Positions 7,412 to 32,348 of a DNA stretch of 64,000 nt are shown piece after piece. Origin of the DNA: Parvularcula dongshanensis (GTDB taxonomy: Bacteria > Pseudomonadota > Alphaproteobacteria > Caulobacterales > Parvularculaceae); assembly GCF_014199615.1 (NCBI RefSeq), contig NZ_JACHOB010000002.1, positions 186,001-250,000 of the forward strand, in the 5' to 3' direction. How positions within the stretch are numbered: position 1 is the first letter of the stretch; every line of letters begins with the position of its first letter. The notes under the pieces were generated by a model that saw only the letters and a program-made list of their open reading frames with translations, was not told the origin of the DNA and made no database searches. A program made the position numbers and the translations under genes.

Positions 7412-7935
7412 GGGCGTGGTGGCGGGCAGCGCGGCCGAACCCCTTCTTCCGGCTGGGGCTCCTCGTGGCCCTCGGCGTGATCGTGCTCGACCAGCTGACC
7501 AAGCACTGGATCCTCTACGGCATCCGGTTGCCCGATCGCTTCGGCAACAGGATCGAGATCAGCGGCATCTTCGACCTGACCTACGTCGAGAACACGGGCG
7601 TCAGCTTCGGCCTCTTCGCCGGCGGGCTCGCGAGCCGCGTGCTCCTCTCGGTCCTCGCGGTGGTCGTGGCTGCCTATGTCGTCCGCTGGCTCGGCACGCT
7701 GCATAGGCGCGTCGCCGCGATCGGCGGCGGGTTCATCGTCGGCGGGGCGCTCGGGAACGTCTACGACCGGGTTCTCTACGGCTACGTGGTCGACTTCCTC
7801 GACTTCTCGGGCCTGCACTTCCCGTTCGTCTTCAACGTCGCGGACGCGGCGATCAACGTCGGCGTCGCTTGCCTCGTCTACGATGCGCTCTTCGTCGCGC
7901 CGAAGCGCGAGCTTACCGAAACCACAGACGCGTGA
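7408..7935 (+). CDS. lspA: Lipoprotein signal peptidase (signal peptidase II)
   Basis: LspA cleaves the signal peptide of diacylated prolipoproteins in the inner membrane. The 175-residue protein has four hydrophobic segments and the family motifs: VLDQLTKHWI, the VENTGVSFG segment, GGALGNVYDRVLYGYVVDFLDF with one catalytic Asp, and FNVADAAINVGV with the other. I chose GTG at 7408 because it overlaps the ileS stop (GTGA) and gives a normal length. It probably processes the many lipoproteins encoded in this window, including the one directly downstream. Confidence 0.96.
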   Translation: MRAWWRAARPNPFFRLGLLVALGVIVLDQLTKHWILYGIRLPDRFGNRIEISGIFDLTYVENTGVSFGLFAGGLASRVLLSVLAVVVAAYVVRWLGTLHRRVAAIGGGFIVGGALGNVYDRVLYGYVVDFLDFSGLHFPFVFNVADAAINVGVACLVYDALFVAPKRELTETTDA

Positions 7936-7987
7936 GGGTTTCGGCGGACAAGCTCGCACGCTAGAAGCGGCCCCCGTGGAGACTCGC

Positions 7988-8548
7988 ATGACCCCTACCC
8001 TTCGCCTCGCCGCGCTTTGCCTTGGCACGCTGCTGTTCACCTCGTCCTGCGCTTCGCTCGGCAAGGCCGTCGGCGCGGGCAAGAACCCGCCCGACGAGTT
8101 CGCGATCACGACCAAGGCGCCCCTGACCGTGCCGCCGGACTACGCGCTGCGTCCGCCCAAGCCCGGCGAGACGCGGCCCGAGGAGAAGTCGACCACGGAC
8201 CGGGCGCGCGAGCTGCTGATCGGCGACGCGTCCGCCGCGCCGCCTTCGCAGGGCGAACTCGCCCTCATTCAGAACGCGGGCGCCCTCGACGTCGATTCGA
8301 ACATCCGCGCGATCCTCGCCGCCGAGAACGGGGGACGCGCGTCCAAGAACGAGAGCCTCGCCAACCAGATCCTGTTCTGGCACACCAATAAGGGCGAGAT
8401 CGACGATTCGGCCGCGCCGCTCCGCGTCGAGGACGAAGGCGCCTGGATGGCAGAACGCCGCCGTTCGATCGAGTCCGTCACGGGCGGCGGCCAGGTGACG
8501 ATCGCGAAGGACGACCGCGGCGTCCTGAACCTGCCCGGCGTCAACTAG
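7988..8548 (+). CDS. DUF3035 family outer-membrane lipoprotein (BamF-like)
   Basis: The 186-residue protein begins with a lipobox ([10 protein letters not shown]), so it should be lipidated at Cys20. The next part has the conserved alphaproteobacterial signature [27 protein letters not shown]. This motif is the one compared with BamC in work on BamF, the alphaproteobacterial accessory subunit of the beta-barrel assembly machine; from memory DUF3035 proteins are annotated as BamF in some genomes. The C terminus is acidic and Asn-rich without clear domains. It lies 52 bases after lspA and its stop overlaps the mutL GTG by one base. The BamF role is inference. Confidence 0.8.
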
Positions 8549-10398
8549 TGACGGCGCGGGCGGAAGCGGCCCGCGCCCGCCGCCCGGTCATCCGCAGGCT
8601 TCCCCCCGGCGCGGTCAACCGCATCGCCGCCGGCGAGGTGGTCGAGCGGCCCGCGAGCGCCCTCAAGGAGCTGGTCGAGAACGCGCTCGATGCCGGGGCG
8701 ACCCGGATCGAGGTCGCGATCGAGGATGGCGGCCGATCCCTGATCCGCGTTACCGACGATGGCTGCGGCATGGACCGCGAGGCCCTGGCCCTGTCGATCG
8801 AACGGCACGCGACGTCCAAGCTGACGCCCGACGACGCGGGCGACTACGACCTTCTCTGCATCGACACGCTCGGCTTTCGCGGCGAGGCGTTGCCGTCCAT
8901 CGCCTCGGTCGCACGGCTGTCGATCACGACGCGCGCCGCGGGCGAGGACGCCTGGACCCTGCGCTGCGACGGCGGCGAGGCGCGCCCGCCCTCGCCCGCC
9001 CCCTTCCCCGGGACGGGCACGACGGTCGAGGTCCGCGACCTCTTCTACGCGACGCCCGCGCGCCTGAACTTCCTCAAGGGCGAGCGCGCCGAGACGACGG
9101 CGGCGCAGGACGTCCTCAAGCGCCTCGCCATGGCGCGCCCAGACGTCGCCTTCGCGCTCGAGGCGGACGGGCGGCGACGCTTCGCCTACGCCGCCGAGCC
9201 GCCGGGCGAGGAGGGCCACCTTCGCAGGCTCGCCGCGATCATGGGCGCGGAGTTCGGCCGCAACGCGGTCACGCTCGATGCGCCGAGGGAAGACGCGCGG
9301 CTTACGGGCTTCGCGGGGCTCCCGACCTTCAACCGCGGCCTGCCCGACCGGCAGTACTTGTTCGTCAACGGACGGCCCGTCCGTGACAAGCTGATCGTCG
9401 GCGCGGTCAGGGGCGCCTATGCCGACTTCTTGGCGCGGGACAGGCACCCCATGGTCGCGCTCTTCTTGGACCTGCCCGCCCGCGCGGTCGACGTGAACGT
9501 CCACCCGGCCAAGACCGAGGTGCGGTTCCGGGACTCTGGCGCCGTCAGAGGCCTCCTCGTCTCCGCCCTCAAGCACGCCCTCGCAGAAGCCGGGCACAGG
9601 GCGTCCACGACGGTCGCGAGCGCCGCACTGGGCGCCGCCCGGCCCGAGGGCAGCTCGGCGCCCTACGCCTACCGTCCGCAGACGGTGGACCGGTCCTTCG
9701 TCAGGCGGGGGACGCCGGAACAGTTCGCCGAAGTACAGTCGGCCTTCGCGCCATCGGACGCCGCCGCGCCGACGGCGAGGACCGAACGCGAGCCCGAGGC
9801 GCAGAGCCCGCCGCCCGACTACCCCCTCGGCGCGGCGCGGGCGCAGGTTCACGAGACCTACATCGTCGCGCAGACGCGGGACGGCCTCGTCATCGTCGAT
9901 CAGCACGCGGCGCATGAACGCCTCGTCTACGAGCGGATGAAGACCGCGATGGCGGCGGGCGGCGTGCCGCGCCAAGGCCTCTTGATCCCCGAGGTCGTCG
10001 ACCTCGCCCAGGACGAGGTCGAAGCGCTGTCGCAGCGCGCCGAGGAGCTGGCCGAGATGGGCCTCCTCCTCGAGGCCTTCGGCGAGGGGGCGGTCCTCGT
10101 CCGCGAGACGCCCGCGCTCTTGGGCGATTGCGACGTACAAGGCCTCGTCCGCGACCTCGCCGCCGACATTACCGGCCTAGAGGAGTCGCTGACGCTGAAA
10201 GAGCGCCTCGGCGAGGTCTGCGGCAACATGGCCTGCCGGGGCTCGGTCCGCGCGGGGCGGCGCCTGAACGGCGAGGAGATGAACGCCCTTCTTCGCCAGA
10301 TGGAGGCGACGCCCCACTCCGGCCAATGCAATCACGGCCGCCCGACCTATGTCGAGCTCAAGCTCTCCGACATCGAACGGCTGTTCGGCCGCCGCTAG
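8548..10398 (+). CDS. mutL: DNA mismatch repair protein MutL (endonuclease type)
   Basis: MutL couples mismatch recognition by MutS to strand incision. The 616-residue protein has the GHKL ATPase N terminus ([48 protein letters not shown]), a Pro/Ala-rich linker around residues 350-420, and the C-terminal dimer domain. That domain carries [12 protein letters not shown], matching the DQHA(x)2E(x)4E metal motif of incising MutL proteins, plus [16 protein letters not shown] and a terminal FGRR. This fits a lineage without MutH. It starts with GTG at 8548, sharing one base with the upstream stop. Its stop overlaps the gltX stop on the other strand. Confidence 0.97.
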
Positions 10399-26080: not shown

Positions 26081-26788
26081 TCAGCGCAGCTCGTAGGTGA
26101 TCTGGACGCTCGCGGTCACCGCCTGCTCGCCCGCCTCGACCGGTGTCGGCGCAGCTTCGGCCTGCATGCGCATCATCCGCCCGTCATAGTAGGGCTGCGG
26201 CCCGCCCCCGCCCCCCGCCTCGGTCAGCGTCAGCACGCGGCCCAGCGAGACGCCCGCCTCCTCGGCGAGGAGCTCCGCCTTCGCGCGGGCGTCGCGCACG
26301 GCGTCGCGCCGCGCGTCGTCCTGAAGCGAATCAGCGTTCTGAAAGCCGAAGGACAGGGAATCGAGCCCGTTCGCACCGGCCTGTACGGCGGCGTCGATGA
26401 CATCGCCCGCCCCTTCCGTCCCGCGAAGGCGTATGGTGAGACCGTTCGCCGCCTCATAGCCTGCGATCACTGCGCGGTCGAAGCGGCCATTGTCGTTCTG
26501 CTCGTAGTAGGGCGACAGCGACAGACCGGACGTCTGCATGTCGCGCGGCTCGATGTTGAGGGTCCGCAGACGGTCCCGTACCGCCGTCATCTTCTGAGCG
26601 TTGGCGGCGAGTGCCTCCGCCGCGGTGGCCGCCCTGCTCGTCGCGGAGAAACGCAAGGTCGCCATGTCCGGCGTCCCCGTCGCCTCGCCCAAGCCCGAAA
26701 CGGAGAGGGTTCTCGGTGCCGGCTCTTGCGCGTGCGCGGCGAGCGGCAGGCATAGCAGCAAAGGAATGAGGGGAATCGCGCGCTTCAT
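26081..26788 (-). CDS. SIMPL domain-containing periplasmic protein
   Basis: The 235-residue product has a signal peptide (MKRAIPLIPLLLCLPLAAHAQ), then the SIMPL/DUF541 domain: RTLSVSGLGEATGTPDMATLRFSA, NIEPRDMQTSGLSLSPYYE and a central ARAKAELLAEEAGVSLGRVLTL segment, which is very typical. Family members affect oxidative stress resistance and are periplasmic or outer-membrane associated. The ATG at 26788 matches the signal peptide. It follows the anti-sigma-like gene, so it may belong to the stress operon. Confidence 0.9.
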   Translation of the reverse strand: MKRAIPLIPLLLCLPLAAHAQEPAPRTLSVSGLGEATGTPDMATLRFSATSRAATAAEALAANAQKMTAVRDRLRTLNIEPRDMQTSGLSLSPYYEQNDNGRFDRAVIAGYEAANGLTIRLRGTEGAGDVIDAAVQAGANGLDSLSFGFQNADSLQDDARRDAVRDARAKAELLAEEAGVSLGRVLTLTEAGGGGGPQPYYDGRMMRMQAEAAPTPVEAGEQAVTASVQITYELR

Positions 26789-26877
26789 AAGTCTGCTCCA
26801 GAGACGAACCGGTGCAGAATGGCGAGCGGCCGGAGGGGGAGCAATGCCCACGGCAAGGCCAGCAGGCCATCGCTCGA

Positions 26878-27171
26878 TCAACTCGACGAGCGAGACTTCT
26901 CCAGCGGCGCCGCGCCCTCTTCGCCCGTCTTGGCCCGGCGACGGGCCAGCAGGGCTTCGACCTCGCCGCGAAGCGCGTCGTCGGCGTAGATCTCCCGCTT
27001 CAGGCTGCGCAGGTCGAAGGTCGTGCGGAGGTAGGTGACCGCCTGAGCCAGAGAGAGGTGGCGGTCGGCAAGGAAAGCCTCGACCGCGCGACGACGCGCG
27101 GGCGTCAGCTCGTCATCCACATAGGCGTGAATGTCCTGCTCGGTGATCAGATGAACCATGCGCTCTTCCAT
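26878..27171 (-). CDS. Short soluble anti-sigma factor-like protein
   Basis: The 97-residue protein carries ITEQDIHAYVDDELTPARRRAVEAFLADR, close to the N-terminal helix pattern of anti-sigma domain proteins (DLHAYVDGxLDPARRAEVEAxL). It has no cysteine, so no zinc site, and no membrane helix; the protein ends in a charged, Ser-rich tail. It is just downstream of an ECF sigma gene (gap 102 bases), the usual place for a cognate anti-sigma. No match to NepR was seen. ATG at 27171 or, with GGAAGAG upstream, ATG at 27159. Confidence 0.65.
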   Translation of the reverse strand: MEERMVHLITEQDIHAYVDDELTPARRRAVEAFLADRHLSLAQAVTYLRTTFDLRSLKREIYADDALRGEVEALLARRRAKTGEEGAAPLEKSRSSS

Positions 27172-27273
27172 GTCCCAACCGACACGTCTGAGGCGTAGGA
27201 GTTCCGCGCCACAATCGCTGCGGCGCGGAAGAGATCGGAAAGGACCCGGCCTGTGTCGGCCGAGCCACGGCGA

Positions 27274-27792
27274 TCAGGCCGACAGGCGCTCTTCCTGAAC
27301 GGCGCCTTGTTCCAGCGCCTCGCGCAGGCGGCTGCGGGCCCTGGAAAGACGCGAGCGGACCGTCCCGACCGGCACGTCCAGAAGCTCGGCGGCCTCCTCG
27401 TACTTCAGGCCTTCGATCGCCACGAGCGAGAGAACGACCTTGTCGTTGTGCGGCAGGTCACGGAAGCCTTCGACCACATCCTGATAGTGCATCTTTTCCT
27501 CCTGTGCTGCGTCGATCGAGAGTTTGGCCTGGGGGGCGTCGTCCATGTCCACGGGCGTGCCCCGGACCTTGTCGCGCCGAATTTGGTTCAGGAACACGCG
27601 GCGGCAGACCGTGAACATCCAGGAACGGAGGTTCTGGCCGTCGAACAGATGCTGCTTGCGCAGGCAGCGCTCGACGCAGTCTTGCACGAGGTCGTTCGCA
27701 CGGTCCTCGTTACGGGTGAGCGTGAAGGCGAAACGGTGAAGTGCCGGCAAGCACTCGTTCAGTTCGGTCGTCGTGATCGCACCGGTGGTCAT
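27274..27792 (-). CDS. ECF sigma factor, probably the general stress sigma (EcfG-like)
   Basis: The 172-residue protein has sigma-70 region 2 (LTRNEDRANDLVQDCVERCLRKQHLFDGQNLRSWMFTVCRRVFLNQIRR) and region 4 with a helix-turn-helix (EGLKYEEAAELLDVPVGTVRSRLSRARSRLREAL), the minimal ECF layout. Its own promoter region has GGAAC-N16-CGTT, the consensus of EcfG-dependent promoters, and phyR with an HWE kinase lie upstream. I therefore infer it is an EcfG-type regulator that activates itself. The sigma domain alone does not prove this. Confidence 0.85.
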   Translation of the reverse strand: MTTGAITTTELNECLPALHRFAFTLTRNEDRANDLVQDCVERCLRKQHLFDGQNLRSWMFTVCRRVFLNQIRRDKVRGTPVDMDDAPQAKLSIDAAQEEKMHYQDVVEGFRDLPHNDKVVLSLVAIEGLKYEEAAELLDVPVGTVRSRLSRARSRLREALEQGAVQEERLSA

Positions 27793-27871
27793 ATGATCCT
27801 CCGTCGAGTTCGGTGCGCTTTCGTTAAGCGTCTAAAAACAGAGGGTCAAAGTTTTTAGTATGAAGCTTGGG

Positions 27872-27896
27872 AACGATGCCGTTATCAGCGTGTTCC
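27872..27896 (-). promoter_or_regulatory. GSR-type promoter upstream of the ECF sigma gene
   Basis: On the minus strand, GGAAC (27896-27892) is followed after exactly 16 bases by CGTT (27875-27872). This matches the known EcfG promoter consensus GGAAC-N16/17-CGTT. Transcription would start about 70 bases upstream of the sigma gene. Confidence 0.7.
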
Positions 27897-27980
27897 TACG
27901 CGATCTACTCCACAGTACTATATCACTCTACCAACTACTCATGACTGCTATACCTATGAGGAGGGATAGGAGTGACATGA

Positions 27981-28000
27981 GTGTGTCGCCGAGGACACAC
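27981..28000. repeat. Hairpin in the 27793-28044 intergenic region
   Basis: GTGTGTC-GCCGAG-GACACAC is a perfect 7-bp inverted repeat downstream of the two-helix membrane gene and upstream of the sigma promoter. It could end the upstream transcript, but no T-run follows. The rest of the 252-base interval, which is more A/T-rich than its surroundings, holds only the sigma promoter. Confidence 0.45.
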
Positions 28001-28044
28001 CCGTGCCGCTCGGTGGCATCCGTCTAAAATGCAGTTTGAGGAGG

Positions 28045-28512
28045 TTAGCGAGGGGGCGGCGAGCGCCGACGCATCGCGCCGACCAGCGTGATGGCGGCGC
28101 CGACCGCCAGGGCGGCGCCGATGGTGCGGCCCGGTCTGATGGTGAGCTGGCGCGCGACGACGCCCGCGACGACTTCCTTCGCGCCGTTGGGCAGGAGGCC
28201 GCTAGCGGCTGACAATCCGCCGGCGAGGCTCGCGGGCGGGGCCTGCGGCACGGGACCACTGGCAACAGCTGCGGCGGGGGTCGCGAGCCCACGCCGAGGG
28301 CGACCCACGATCGCAACGAGGATGCCGAGAAAGACGAGGAAGCCGGCGCCCGAAAGAAGACCCGCGACGAGGCCGTAGCGGGCCGCAACCGCCACGACCC
28401 CCGCCGCGATCAGCAGCGCGAGCGCCCCTCCGAAGAGGAGGCCGACGGCCGTGCCGAAAGCGGCCCGGCGCAAGATCAGACGCAGGCGGAGCGCGAAGCC
28501 GCTAAGACCCAT
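28045..28512 (-). CDS. Two-helix membrane protein, holin-like (YqjE-like)
   Basis: The 155-residue product has an N-terminal basic segment and two long membrane helices (AAFGTAVGLLFGGALALLIAAGVVAVAARYG and LVAGLLSGAGFLVFLGILVAIV), followed by a Pro/Ala-rich tail with a third weak hydrophobic segment near IGAALAVGAAITLVG. It resembles phage-holin-superfamily proteins encoded next to DUF883 proteins (YqjD/YqjE pairs). ATG at 28512 is preferred over GTG at 28515. It follows the DUF883 gene by 6 bases. Confidence 0.65.
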   Translation of the reverse strand: MGLSGFALRLRLILRRAAFGTAVGLLFGGALALLIAAGVVAVAARYGLVAGLLSGAGFLVFLGILVAIVGRPRRGLATPAAAVASGPVPQAPPASLAGGLSAASGLLPNGAKEVVAGVVARQLTIRPGRTIGAALAVGAAITLVGAMRRRSPPPR

Positions 28513-28518
28513 CACCGA

Positions 28519-28857
28519 TCAGTCGCGACGGAAGAGGTGTCCGAGGAGCATGCCGCCCAGCACGGCGATGCCGATCGTCGTGTAGGGATTGCGCTGGACC
28601 TGTGCCTGCAGGTCCGCCGCGATGGCGGCGACGTCGTCCTCGACCGTCTGGACGGTCCGCGAGAAGCTGTCCCGGGCCGTGTCAGCGGCGCCCTGCGCCG
28701 TTTCCTGCGCCGTCCGCAGCGAGCTGCGGCCCAGCGAGACCCCATCCGATTTGAGCGTCATCACGTCGGACTTCAGCGTGGCGAGGTCCTGGCGCAGCTC
28801 GCGCAGAACGGATGCGACCTCGTTGTCGACCTCGCGTTCCTTCTTCGTCGTGCTCAT
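28519..28857 (-). CDS. DUF883 (YqjD/ElaB) family protein
   Basis: The 112-residue protein has a charged N terminus (MSTTKKEREVDNEVASVLRELRQDLATLKSDVM), a long amphipathic helix or coiled coil, and a C-terminal membrane anchor (PYTTIGIAVLGGMLLGHLFRR). That matches YqjD/ElaB-type proteins, which tether ribosomes to the inner membrane in stationary phase in E. coli. It is within the stress gene cluster, 29 bases after the kinase. Confidence 0.85.
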   Translation of the reverse strand: MSTTKKEREVDNEVASVLRELRQDLATLKSDVMTLKSDGVSLGRSSLRTAQETAQGAADTARDSFSRTVQTVEDDVAAIAADLQAQVQRNPYTTIGIAVLGGMLLGHLFRRD

Positions 28858-28886
28858 CCGTCGCTCCTTGGGTTGGCGCTCGCAGG

Positions 28887-30047
28887 CTAGTCCGCGGCTG
28901 CATGAATGGTGACGATGAGGCCTTCGTCCGTCGGAGTCCAATCCGTGCGGCCATTGAGGTAGTTGGTCGAGAAGGCCCGCACGATCGACAGGCCGAACCG
29001 CTCCTCCGCCTCTGCCGGCGGGTTGGCGCCGCCCTCGGTCCATCGAATGCGATAACCGTCCTCCGTCCGGTCGAAGGCGACCTCCAACCAGCCCCCGGGC
29101 GCGGTCAGCGTGCCGTGGCGGCGCGCGTTGGTCGCGAGCTCGTGCAGGATGAGCCCGATCGCGGTCGCCTGACCGGGCGTGACGGCGATGTCGGTGTCGT
29201 GGATCGTCACGCCGGCTTGCTCGTCGCCGACGATCGCGCGGCAAAGCGCGCCGAGCGATACCTCCGTCTGGTAGCGGTGAGGTTCGTGCGGGTTGGCCCC
29301 GGTCAAAGAGTAGGCCTTGTCGAGAGCGCCGATCCGCGCGAGCGTCGCGGCGGCGAACGCGCCCACATTGTCAGCGTGAGGCGCGGACAGGCTGATCAGC
29401 GCGGTGATGACCGACATGGCGTTGCGGATGCGGTGGTTGAGCTCCCTCACCGCCTGATCGGCCCGATCCGAGGCCGCGCGCTGCGCCGTCTCGTCGATCA
29501 GACAAAAGAGAACCCGCTCCGCCGGAAGCGCCTCGAGTACCAAGCTCGCATGCCAGGGCCGCGGCTCGTCATGGCCGCTCAGGCGGACCGTCTGCGGTCC
29601 TTGATCGACGGTCCCCAACGCCGCCTCGATCATCGGCGCCGAGTCGGGAGAGATAGCCTGAAGGTTGCGCCGGCGCACGACGTCCTTCCCGGCCGTCAGG
29701 ATCCGGCCGTCGCGAGCCGCGATGCCGATCGGCAGCGGCATGCGGCTGAGCAGGGTCGAGGACGGGAGGGCCGAGTTCGCAACCCAGGCCACGCCCCGAA
29801 AACCGCCCTCCTTACGATCGACCCGCGCGGCGTAGCTCGTTCCGGCCCGCACGAAGCGAACGTCGAAGGGGCCCTGACGGGGGCTTCGAAGGGCTACGGC
29901 CAAGGAGGCCCGAGCGGCTGGTTCGAGGCCGCGCATGAGGGTCAGCAAGCCGAAGCGGTCCGGCAGGCCCGGCAGCCCCGGACGGAGAACCGTCCGCCCG
30001 CCCTCGGTGTCGAGCGCGGAGAAGCCGAGGCCCTCTGCGGCGTCCAT
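28887..30047 (-). CDS. Sensor histidine kinase of the HWE/HisKA_2 type, probable GSR kinase
   Basis: The 386-residue protein has no membrane helix. The N-terminal half (about residues 1-185) looks like one or two PAS-type sensing domains (PIGIAARDGRILTAG). The kinase part has the phosphoacceptor box ELNHRIRNAMSVITALISL (His205) and the N-box GLILHELATNARRHGTL (Asn307), typical of HWE/HisKA_2 kinases that phosphorylate PhyR. It ends with a normal ATP-lid region (ERFGLSIVRAF). Its position between phyR and the ECF sigma supports a PhyR-kinase role. The signal is unknown. Confidence 0.85.
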   Translation of the reverse strand: MDAAEGLGFSALDTEGGRTVLRPGLPGLPDRFGLLTLMRGLEPAARASLAVALRSPRQGPFDVRFVRAGTSYAARVDRKEGGFRGVAWVANSALPSSTLLSRMPLPIGIAARDGRILTAGKDVVRRRNLQAISPDSAPMIEAALGTVDQGPQTVRLSGHDEPRPWHASLVLEALPAERVLFCLIDETAQRAASDRADQAVRELNHRIRNAMSVITALISLSAPHADNVGAFAAATLARIGALDKAYSLTGANPHEPHRYQTEVSLGALCRAIVGDEQAGVTIHDTDIAVTPGQATAIGLILHELATNARRHGTLTAPGGWLEVAFDRTEDGYRIRWTEGGANPPAEAEERFGLSIVRAFSTNYLNGRTDWTPTDEGLIVTIHAAAD

Positions 30048-30051
30048 GCGC

Positions 30052-30258
30052 CTACTCCGTCCGAAGCCGCACGAGCTCTTCGGAGGCGTCCTCGGCGTGC
30101 CGCTCGGAGTAGAGGAGGCCGAGGGCGATCAACTCGCGGACGGCAGAGGAGCGGTTGTCCGCACGGTTGTCGAAGCGCCAGTCATCGATGTTCGTCAGCT
30201 CAGAATCCGTGACCAGGATCTGAAGCTTCGAGAGACGTTTCTCGTTCGACGATGCCAT
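30052..30258 (-). CDS. Small ribbon-helix-helix-like protein
   Basis: The 68-residue protein reads as a ribbon-helix-helix DNA-binding fold: basic start MASSNEKRLSK, beta strand KLQILVTDSE, helix LTNIDDWRFDN, then helix SSAVRELIALGLLYSE. The protein occupies the slot where NepR often sits in GSR loci, but the core NepR pattern is not visible. It stops 4 bases before the kinase start, so the two are co-translated. A regulator, or an anti-sigma adaptor of unknown type, are both possible. ATG at 30258 begins the strand-helix core; the longer frame is not family-like. Confidence 0.65.
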   Translation of the reverse strand: MASSNEKRLSKLQILVTDSELTNIDDWRFDNRADNRSSAVRELIALGLLYSERHAEDASEELVRLRTE

Positions 30259-30333
30259 GAGGCGCTCTAATCCCGTCCTTGCTTGTCCTGCCGCCCGTTC
30301 GCAGGGCACCGGCTAAGGGCCCGGCTTGTGTTC

Positions 30334-31092
30334 CTACGCCCGGCGGGCGTCAAGGCAATGCACGACCGCAGCCCTAACGTTGTCCGGTGTGTAAGGCTTT
30401 GAAATAACGAAGTCCGGCTCGATTTCCTCGCCCTGGAGGACGCGATCCGGATAGCCGGTGATGAAGATGACCGGGCAGTCGTGTTCTTGGTGGATTCGAA
30501 GCACGGCATCGATGCCGGTCGCCCGCCCGTCGAGGTTGTAATCGGCGAGGATGACGGCGGGGAGCGCTGCCCGCGCCGCCCGGACCGCCTCGTCCGCCGA
30601 CCTGGCTTCGCCCGCGACATCGACGCCCATCCGCTCCAGGATGCCGCGCAGATCGGCTGCGATGAGCGGTTCGTCCTCGACGATTACCGCCCTCGGCGCA
30701 CCGTGCACCACGAGCGCCTCCCGCGCGCGGCGGAGCGCCTCGGCGGGCGCGGCGATGCCGACGATGCGTCCCGCCTCGGCCACGGAGAACCCCATGACGT
30801 CGACGAGCAGCAGCACGAGCCGGTCGTCGTCCGGCGGCGTCGGCAGTGCGTTCAGAAGCGCGCTGTCGGTGAACGGACGGCCGCCACTCGCCGCGGCCTT
30901 GCGGGCGAGCGCCCGCCAACCGGCGAGGAAGATGCTCATGAGGTCGGTGACCGAGGCGCTCGAAGCGCGCGGATCGACATCGACCCGCGCCATGGTGAGG
31001 CGCATCATCTCGTCGCCGATCAGCCGGTCCGCGAACACGGCACGGGAGAACTGGCGAAGAACGCCGAGGGGTGGGCGGGTCGCGATGCTCAC
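30334..31092 (-). CDS. phyR: PhyR-type response regulator with ECF sigma-like domain
   Basis: The 252-residue protein joins an N-terminal sigma-like domain (residues about 1-130, LGVLRQFSRAVFADRLIGDEMMRLTMARVDVDP) to a C-terminal receiver domain. The receiver has VIVEDEPLIAADL, the phosphoacceptor Asp184 (ILADYNLDG), Thr212 (IFITGYP) and Lys232 (ISKPY), close to the FAT-GUY type of PhyR receivers. Phosphorylated PhyR normally sequesters NepR to release EcfG. GTG at 31092 has AAGAGG upstream and gives the family N terminus. The gene heads the stress cluster on the minus strand. Confidence 0.9.
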   Translation of the reverse strand: MSIATRPPLGVLRQFSRAVFADRLIGDEMMRLTMARVDVDPRASSASVTDLMSIFLAGWRALARKAAASGGRPFTDSALLNALPTPPDDDRLVLLLVDVMGFSVAEAGRIVGIAAPAEALRRAREALVVHGAPRAVIVEDEPLIAADLRGILERMGVDVAGEARSADEAVRAARAALPAVILADYNLDGRATGIDAVLRIHQEHDCPVIFITGYPDRVLQGEEIEPDFVISKPYTPDNVRAAVVHCLDARRA

Positions 31093-31310: not shown

Positions 31311-32045
31311 TCAGCCAAGTTTTGCTGTCCGTTCCCACGCGTCGAGGTAGAGGGTGGAAAAGTCGCACAGTGCTTGCAACGCCGGCCGGTCGACGAGCCT
31401 GACCTGCATGCGCTGCCGTTCGATGAGGCCGCTGCGTTCGAGTTGGCTGAGCACCCTGCTGACGTGAACGTAGGACAGGCCGAGCGCGTCAGCGAGGCTG
31501 GACTGGCCGATCGGCAGGACGAAGGCATCGTCGCTCGCCCGCCCCGTGACCCGCAGCCGCTCGTACAGCTCGAGAAGAAGGTGGGCGACCCGTTCGCGTG
31601 CCGAGCGCCGCCCGTTGCGCACGATCTGCTCTCGCAGGATCGCCTCCTCCTGCACGGCGGCCCACCAGAAGGCGAGCGCCAGCGGCGAGGCACCTCGGAA
31701 GAGGTTCAGCATCTCGGTCTTGTCTAGCTGCGCCGTCGTCAGCGGCGTCAGCGCCGTGACCGTATGGTCGGCGGGGCGGCCGGTGAAGACTTGAAGGTCG
31801 AAGAGGTCGCCGGGCAGCATGAAGTTGACGATCTGCCGCCGGCCGTCGGACAGGCTGATCGACCGGCTCGCCCAGCCATCGACGACGACGAAGGCGCCGC
31901 GCGCCGGCGCCCCTCGCTCGACCACGACCTCGCCGGCTTCGTGACGCTCCACCGACGTGGCGATTCCGGCCAACGCCGCGCCGGCCGCATCATCGAGCAA
32001 GGCGCCGCTGACCAGGCGAGAGAACAAAGCGTCGGTCGGGCTCAC
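31311..32045 (-). CDS. Crp/Fnr-family transcriptional regulator
   Basis: The 244-residue protein has an N-terminal cyclic nucleotide-binding-like barrel (EAGEVVVERGAPARGAFVVVDGWASRSISLSDGRRQIVNFMLPGDLFDLQVFTG) and a C-terminal winged helix (LPIGQSSLADALGLSYVHVSRVLSQLERSGLIERQ). No Cys cluster for an Fe-S centre is visible, so it is unlikely to be a classical Fnr. GTG at 32045 has GAGGA upstream. It is divergent from cysD across 303 bases that contain a strong palindrome. Confidence 0.88.
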   Translation of the reverse strand: MSPTDALFSRLVSGALLDDAAGAALAGIATSVERHEAGEVVVERGAPARGAFVVVDGWASRSISLSDGRRQIVNFMLPGDLFDLQVFTGRPADHTVTALTPLTTAQLDKTEMLNLFRGASPLALAFWWAAVQEEAILREQIVRNGRRSARERVAHLLLELYERLRVTGRASDDAFVLPIGQSSLADALGLSYVHVSRVLSQLERSGLIERQRMQVRLVDRPALQALCDFSTLYLDAWERTAKLG

Positions 32046-32092
32046 GCGGCGTCCTCGCTCCGATTGGCTGAAAGCAGGCGGTCCGCCCCGAA

Positions 32093-32115
32093 CGGGGCAA
32101 TGCCGAATTGCCCCG
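32093..32115. promoter_or_regulatory. Palindromic operator candidate between the Crp/Fnr gene and cysD
   Basis: CGGGGCAAT-GCCGA-ATTGCCCCG is a perfect 9-bp inverted repeat, 48 bases upstream of the Crp/Fnr start. GCCCCG-AA-CGGGGC overlaps its left arm. The 32046-32348 interval holds no gene that I can support; the remainder shows no clear feature. It may be autoregulatory. Confidence 0.5.
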
Positions 32116-32348
32116 AACCTCGCTTCTACGTCAACAGCTTGGCCCCCCTCGCCGACCGTCTTTGGCGAGTCCGGCGCCCCGACGGCACAGGTCACGATCC
32201 CGCGTTCCGCGCCCACCCTACCCGGCGCGCCGCCTTGTCACGCCGTGAGAGCAGGCCTTAAGGCGCCCTCGCCTTCGCGCTTGCGGCACGCATCATGAAT
32301 GCTGTCGGGTGAGCCTACGATCAACTTCCCCTCGTGAGACCCTTTACT

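Follow-up and report, generated by a model that had tools for sequence, protein, structure and literature searches.

The window analysed here is a stretch of 64,000 nucleotides from Parvularcula dongshanensis (contig NZ_JACHOB010000002.1, positions 186,001 to 250,000), and its subject is a general stress response (GSR) locus in which a PhyR-type regulator occurs with no recognisable NepR. The locus genes, all of them on the minus strand, occupy positions 26878 to 31092 and encode, in order of position, an anti-sigma-like protein, an extracytoplasmic function (ECF) sigma factor, a hydrophobic protein, a DUF883-like protein, an HWE kinase, a ribbon-helix-helix (RHH)-like protein and the PhyR-type protein. 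A first-pass annotation had placed PhyR, the kinase and the sigma factor on one strand within 5 kb, with an exact GGAAC-N16-CGTT promoter at the sigma gene and two small proteins, one near phyR and one after the sigma gene. This arrangement was borne out: the span is 4.2 kb, the promoter is present at 27872-27896 (minus strand) and both small genes exist as described. Genomes and loci are cited by our own handles (G and L numbers).

31311..32216, minus strand: Crp/Fnr-family regulator beside phyR (Pfam match; relatives' loci)
30334..31092, minus strand: variant phyR (start codon GTG, at 31092), encoding a receiver domain and a diverged sigma-like domain
30052..30258, minus strand: RHH protein of 68 aa behind phyR (AlphaFold2 model, structural matches)
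28887..30047, minus strand: HWE-type histidine kinase of 386 aa (PF07536, HWE_HK, 30.3 bits; cut-off 22.8)
28519..28857, minus strand: DUF883-like protein of 112 aa (weak DUF883_C match, E 0.015, under cut-off)
28045..28515, minus strand: hydrophobic protein of 156 aa, membrane type by eye, no Pfam family at E<=1
27970..27982, minus strand: 13-mer ACTCATGTCACTC upstream of ecf, candidate RHH operator
27937 (start), plus strand: additional ACTCAT hexamer upstream of ecf
27872..27896, minus strand: exact EcfG-type promoter motif (GGAAC-N16-CGTT) at the sigma gene
27274..27792, minus strand: ECF sigma factor of 172 aa (Sigma70_r2 and Sigma70_r4_2 above cut-off)
26878..27171, minus strand: cysteine-free anti-sigma-domain-type protein, start at 27159 or 27171 (zf-HC2 match near cut-off)

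The PhyR protein of the window has a receiver domain of 55.6 bits (PF00072, cut-off 30.2). Its sigma-like domain scored 12.7 bits with PF22233 against a cut-off of 27 and gave no match to PF22029; by comparison, scores of 65-88 were obtained for three canonical PhyRs from the genus. Alignment to the PhyR family model NF006623 extended over residues 26-265 with 165.6 bits, under the cut-off of 240. This PhyR variant was present in 12 of the 62 genomes of the family Parvularculaceae, and the 12 proteins formed one group in a quick tree (Shimodaira-Hasegawa-like approximate likelihood ratio test, SH-aLRT, 93), when five variant rows labelled C (L033-L037) are reassigned by eye. The receiver motifs E-D, D-Y-x-L and K-P-Y are invariant across their alignment, which has a mean column identity of 60%.

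The first-pass annotation had seen no protein with a NepR core, and the profile search with PF18557 that it proposed was extended to the whole source genome (99.98% complete, 16 contigs). PF18557 gave no match at E<=0.001 (best E 0.353 at E<=10). A widened NepR profile of 12 rows, in which diverged NepR-like proteins were included, yielded no significant match either (best E 0.164, partial, in a 218-aa frame), and no canonical nepR was found elsewhere in the genome. A local NepR profile, applied to open reading frames (ORFs) of at least 30 aa in 20 kb around the locus, returned nothing at E<=50. In an order-wide sample of 100 genomes, 64 had a PhyR match at E<=1e-20 (59 non-variant and 5 variant). 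PF18557 is sensitive enough, because it detected NepR in all but one of the 59 non-variant genomes (58); the sole miss was G036, whose match is partial. NepR was detected in none of the five variant-PhyR genomes, and three more genomes had a NepR match with no PhyR at E<=1e-20. Within the family, NepR exceeded the Pfam cut-off in 3/3 genomes with a canonical PhyR and in 0/12 with the variant, among them G137, a bin with 6% contamination whose PF18557 match of 24.9 bits is under the cut-off of 25.7. The widened profile found no significant match in the nine other variant-PhyR genomes outside Aquisalinus. The pattern of a PhyR with no recognisable NepR is a property of a clade and not of one genome.

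Canonical EcfG was not found in the source genome, the best match being the ECF sigma factor of the locus itself at 35% identity. EcfG matches of at least 67% identity were confined to G025, G030 and G050 among the 62 family genomes. In a sigma factor tree built without a reference set of published ECF groups, and from which one ORF of G120 was left out, 37 NepR-linked EcfGs occupied one side of a branch (100/100), with the window ECF outside.

Relatives of these proteins occur beyond the locus. A second PhyR-like protein in the same genome (G000:C1:364615-365310; L064:9576-10388, minus strand) is 36% identical to that of the window, and roughly 87 nt upstream there is an EcfG-type motif with an N17 spacer; the 19 kb around its gene contain no NepR or RHH match. 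G050 carries a second, diverged NepR (L104:14450-14644; G050:C1:846458-846577), below the Pfam cut-off and within about 5 kb of a second PhyR-like gene. Stand-alone sigma-like proteins of 134-158 aa, lacking a receiver, were seen in the phyR/ecf loci of six genomes (L089:9987-10406; L090:9100-9513; L091 about 8859-9278; L092:8161-8565; L093 about 8027-8431; L162:9679-10155), with none found in the window. Their profile scores are closer to the locus ECF than to PhyR, and they are possibly sigma decoys. In G035 (L098:2134-5652) a 1172-aa protein, CheB/CheR-like by eye, adjoins the PhyR variant, and its end weakly matches the HWE kinase of the window.

The promoter motif begins 104 nt before the sigma start. 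Exact motifs with a spacer of N16 or N17 number 67 in the genome, compared with 35 for the reversed pattern. In the window and related loci, 5 of the 22 phyR and ecf genes have one at most 250 nt upstream; among random stretches the rate is 0.73%. These five genes are the ecf of the window and the phyR of four relatives; a one-mismatch version lies upstream of phyR in four more. No GSR promoter was found within 250 nt upstream of the window's own phyR, allowing up to one mismatch. Many of the genomic GGAAC matches are probably due to chance, since 16 of 30 inspected with their flanks lay inside a predicted gene and only 9 had a predicted gene start 15-250 nt downstream. One of these nine precedes a 52-aa membrane-type protein of a kind known from stress regulons.

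In an ordinary ECF arrangement, the anti-sigma gene comes after the gene of its sigma factor. The protein encoded behind the window's sigma gene scored 22.1 bits with zf-HC2 (cut-off 22.2), and 9 of 11 aligned proteins match that family at E<=1. Cysteines are absent from 8 of the 11, the window protein included, and number one in the other three. The predicted fold consists of four helices (predicted local distance difference test, pLDDT, 77.3); a PDB sequence search with the alignment found nothing meaningful. Weak structural matches, given below, suggest a protein of the anti-sigma-domain type.

The family contains 11 matches to this protein at E<=1e-30, every one directly behind a locus-type ecf. 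They include the two Aquisalinus genomes G064 and G105, where the ecf-anti-sigma cassette is far from phyR-rhh. The intervening gap is 7-8 nt in 7 of 8 measured loci (all but the window). Strong matches were found in 10 of 12 variant-PhyR genomes versus 1 of the 50 remaining ones, namely G136, an 89% complete assembly. When only the 15 genomes with the locus ECF (E<1e-50) are considered, the anti-sigma-type protein was present in 10/11 with the PhyR variant and 0/4 without (Fisher P 0.0037). These counts omit the partial ECF of G136 and the weaker anti-sigma matches (the second and third in G114, the second in G015 and one in G118); weaker matches, such as a second copy in G114 at E 1.4e-11, are located elsewhere. 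In G050, assembled as one contig of 2.90 Mb, rhh and ecf stand beside cysD, the neighbour gene of the window locus, with no match to crp, phyR, kinase or anti-sigma gene between or beside them. If PhyR were the antagonist of the anti-sigma protein, genomes that lack the PhyR variant would be expected to lack the anti-sigma gene as well, because an unreleasable brake would silence the sigma factor. The co-occurrence leans towards the sigma-linked protein being a PhyR-controlled anti-sigma factor.

The suggestion that one of the two small proteins could be a divergent partner of PhyR was only half right. A partner role for the sigma-linked protein is where the co-occurrence leans; descent from NepR found no support, as neither protein has detectable NepR homology (hhalign of 36 NepR cores against both alignments, probability <1%).

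The protein behind phyR was modelled by AlphaFold2 with a pLDDT of 87.4, from an alignment that omitted row L161 (contains X). Helices at residues 18-31 and 36-53 are preceded by a segment left without a pairing strand in the monomer. NikR, CopG and RHH antitoxins lead both lists of structural matches, NikR at Z 6.2 with a root-mean-square deviation of 1.2 over 46 residues. By sequence, Pfam RHH_1 matched only 2 of 22 aligned proteins, weakly, and a PDB search with the alignment gave a single weak match, to NikR (E 0.83). Aligned with NikR residues 3 and 5, which we take to be DNA contacts, are K11 (invariant in the 22 proteins) and Q13 (nearly invariant). In all 12 loci rhh accompanies the variant phyR, overlapping its stop by 4 nt in four, lying within 185 nt in six and about 1.5 kb away in the two Aquisalinus loci. 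Homologues occur in 15/15 genomes with the locus ECF, including four with no PhyR variant, where rhh is upstream of ecf on the same strand (a more distant subtype in 3 of the 4). Thus the gene follows the sigma gene as much as PhyR, and its retention in genomes with no PhyR variant speaks against RHH as the brake that PhyR releases.

Repeats upstream of ecf offer a candidate target for the RHH protein. The hexamer ACTCAT/ATGAGT occurs three times in the window, twice upstream of ecf. Across the ecf upstream regions of 12 loci (3600 bases), 14 copies were observed against 0.64 expected, the two Aquisalinus loci having been left out as the discovery pair; at least one copy is present in 7 of the 12 regions, three of the seven being near relatives. 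Five genomes of the genus have the 13-mer upstream of ecf, and it was found nowhere else among 254 loci, which are mostly stress-gene surroundings and not whole genomes. Allowing two mismatches, the window has one match (the exact one) against a shuffle mean of 0.80. Generic palindromes upstream of phyR, ecf and rhh were rejected, as the top count of 2 of 34 sequences was also reached by 8 of 50 shuffles; a pair shown by that search led to the ACTCAT repeats. The 13-mer and the repeats are associated with ecf, and their binder could be another regulator, such as the Crp/Fnr-family protein. Co-occurrence and the operator-like repeats favour the RHH protein as a DNA-binding regulator rather than a brake.

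The gene content, linkage and co-occurrence, the predicted folds, the promoter and repeat motifs and the failure to find NepR or canonical EcfG are direct observations; from them we infer every binding and phosphorylation step of a stress switch in which both NepR and EcfG would have been replaced, with the anti-sigma-type protein as brake and the RHH protein on DNA. We give this reading a probability of about 0.5. The anti-sigma-domain-type protein would hold the ECF sigma factor, whose gene directly precedes its own. In response to stress, the PhyR variant would be phosphorylated by the HWE kinase, and its diverged sigma-like domain would then capture the anti-sigma-type protein and free the sigma factor. 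Freed sigma would act at GGAAC-N16/17-CGTT promoters to transcribe stress genes as well as the operon that encodes it, while the RHH protein would bind the ACTCAT-type repeats upstream of the sigma operon and set its transcription.

A number of results weigh against this proposal. The co-occurrence thresholds were chosen after the matches had been seen, and the number of independent lineages is small. When G136 is counted, in which the ECF is cut by a contig end, the anti-sigma gene is present and the PhyR variant was not found, the comparison becomes 10/11 versus 1/5 (P 0.013); when close relatives are merged into single lineages, P rises to 0.048, and to 0.19 if G136 is included. The co-occurrence is thus a lean and not proof. 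Two metagenome bins, G035 and G137, keep the PhyR variant and RHH with no anti-sigma match, and G035 has no locus-type ECF at E<=1e-30. Foldseek matches of the anti-sigma-type model were weak (RslA first at E 3.6, RsiW seventh), and its best VIA Z, 3.3, was to an unrelated protein. In the window itself, 102 or 114 nt separate the sigma stop from the anti-sigma-like start. Five of the 12 ecf upstream regions (those of G111, G129, G114, G045 and G113) have no ACTCAT hexamer. In 4 of 12 loci rhh overlaps the stop codon of phyR by 4 nt, so that RHH may pair physically with PhyR. Furthermore, Aquisalinus G064 and G105 encode a NepR-like ORF of 53-57 aa (L092:7986-8147; L093 about 7856-8026) beside the sigma-like ORF without a receiver. 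It was missed by PF18557 and aligns to the NepR core free of gaps. It is a candidate only, because a NepR profile of canonical members alone did not list it at E<=50.

The proximity of rhh to phyR, near in 12/12 variant loci and overlapping its stop in four, bears on two alternatives. RHH might itself stand in for NepR, as an anti-sigma factor that arose from a DNA-binding fold and is sequestered by PhyR, with the protein behind the sigma gene a separate extra regulator. Homologues in all 15 locus-ECF genomes, upstream of ecf in the four lacking the PhyR variant (three of the distant subtype), and retention in G035 and G137, where the anti-sigma match was not found, agree with such a role. We consider it unlikely, however, given that RHH is also kept in G045, which has no PhyR at E<=1e-20 and where a PhyR-released brake would lock the sigma factor off, that its DNA-contact-type positions are conserved and that operator-like repeats stand at the ecf operon. 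A PhyR-RHH complex could instead act on transcription, PhyR steering RHH on DNA while the ECF/anti-sigma pair answers a separate signal. The phyR/rhh overlaps and the separation of the two cassettes in G064 and G105 would fit, but the unequal distribution of strong anti-sigma matches (10/12 variant-PhyR genomes versus 1/50) and the alignment of PhyR to its family over nearly the whole length make this improbable as well.

It is very unlikely that the circuit is canonical, its NepR being encoded at another site and so diverged that every profile misses it. The Aquisalinus ORFs do escape PF18557, and a 68-aa protein of Rhodobacter sphaeroides at the nepR position has 25% identity (PMC5830050, excerpted text); however, neither the widened profile, in the source genome and the nine other variant genomes outside Aquisalinus, nor the local profile around the locus gave evidence of such a protein. 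It is hardly credible that the locus is a decayed remnant of a stress response that has lost its control: although PhyR falls under the Pfam cut-offs in its sigma-like domain, the frames are intact, the receiver motifs are invariant in 12 proteins at 60% mean column identity and the promoter motif is in genome-wide excess.

The proposed switch resembles the PhyR-NepR-EcfG system in its PhyR-type protein (a receiver with a diverged sigma-like domain), its HWE kinase and ECF sigma factor and its GGAAC-N16/17-CGTT motifs. It differs in that NepR and canonical EcfG were not found, the sigma-like domain of PhyR falls below Pfam cut-offs, the genes share one strand where the canonical arrangement is divergent, and an anti-sigma-domain-type protein lies behind the sigma gene and RHH behind phyR. 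Canonical nepR shares an operon with ecfG (PMC8103513, excerpted text). The phyR locus RSP_1271-1274 of R. sphaeroides likewise has a Crp/Fnr-family gene beside phyR and a non-standard small protein, although the 68-aa protein there keeps its identity to NepR and the nepR position (PMC5830050, excerpted text). The protein behind the sigma gene is akin to zf-HC2-like anti-sigma factors such as RslA and RsiW in being helical by prediction, encoded right behind an ECF gene and matched by zf-HC2 at the cut-off; unlike them, it has no zinc-binding cysteine set and, by eye, no membrane stretch, and the PhyR variant is present in 10 of its 11 genomes. The RHH protein shares with NikR and CopG a predicted fold, the register of strand residues and short repeated operator-like sites, but is tied to a PhyR/ECF locus, and its target DNA is a candidate.

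No PhyR system with a non-NepR anti-sigma factor is described in the excerpted text of PMC5830050, PMC8103513, PMC3892343, PMC4814048 and PMC12148442. A literature search combining Parvularcula, PhyR, NepR and anti-sigma factor gave no match, and papers found with Parvularcula and PhyR concern other subjects by their titles and the beginnings of their abstracts; in both cases the sources mostly do not include subscription literature.

More broadly, and tentatively, with somewhat less than an even chance, partner switching by PhyR may need no NepR: in one alphaproteobacterial family the PhyR variant would disarm an unrelated anti-sigma-domain-type protein guarding a non-EcfG sigma factor, and sensor and brake would be exchangeable independently in evolution. 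If so, a clade that keeps PhyR without NepR and canonical EcfG would indicate that the sigma mimic of PhyR can change its ligand, and would supply naturally occurring replacement sets with which to examine how the specificity of PhyR is determined.

Among the remaining genes, a relative of the DUF883-like protein adjoins the kinase in G135. No relative of the protein encoded at 26081-26881 of the window was found in the related loci searched; its gene lies behind the anti-sigma-type gene on the same strand, and the protein has a signal-peptide-like stretch near its start.

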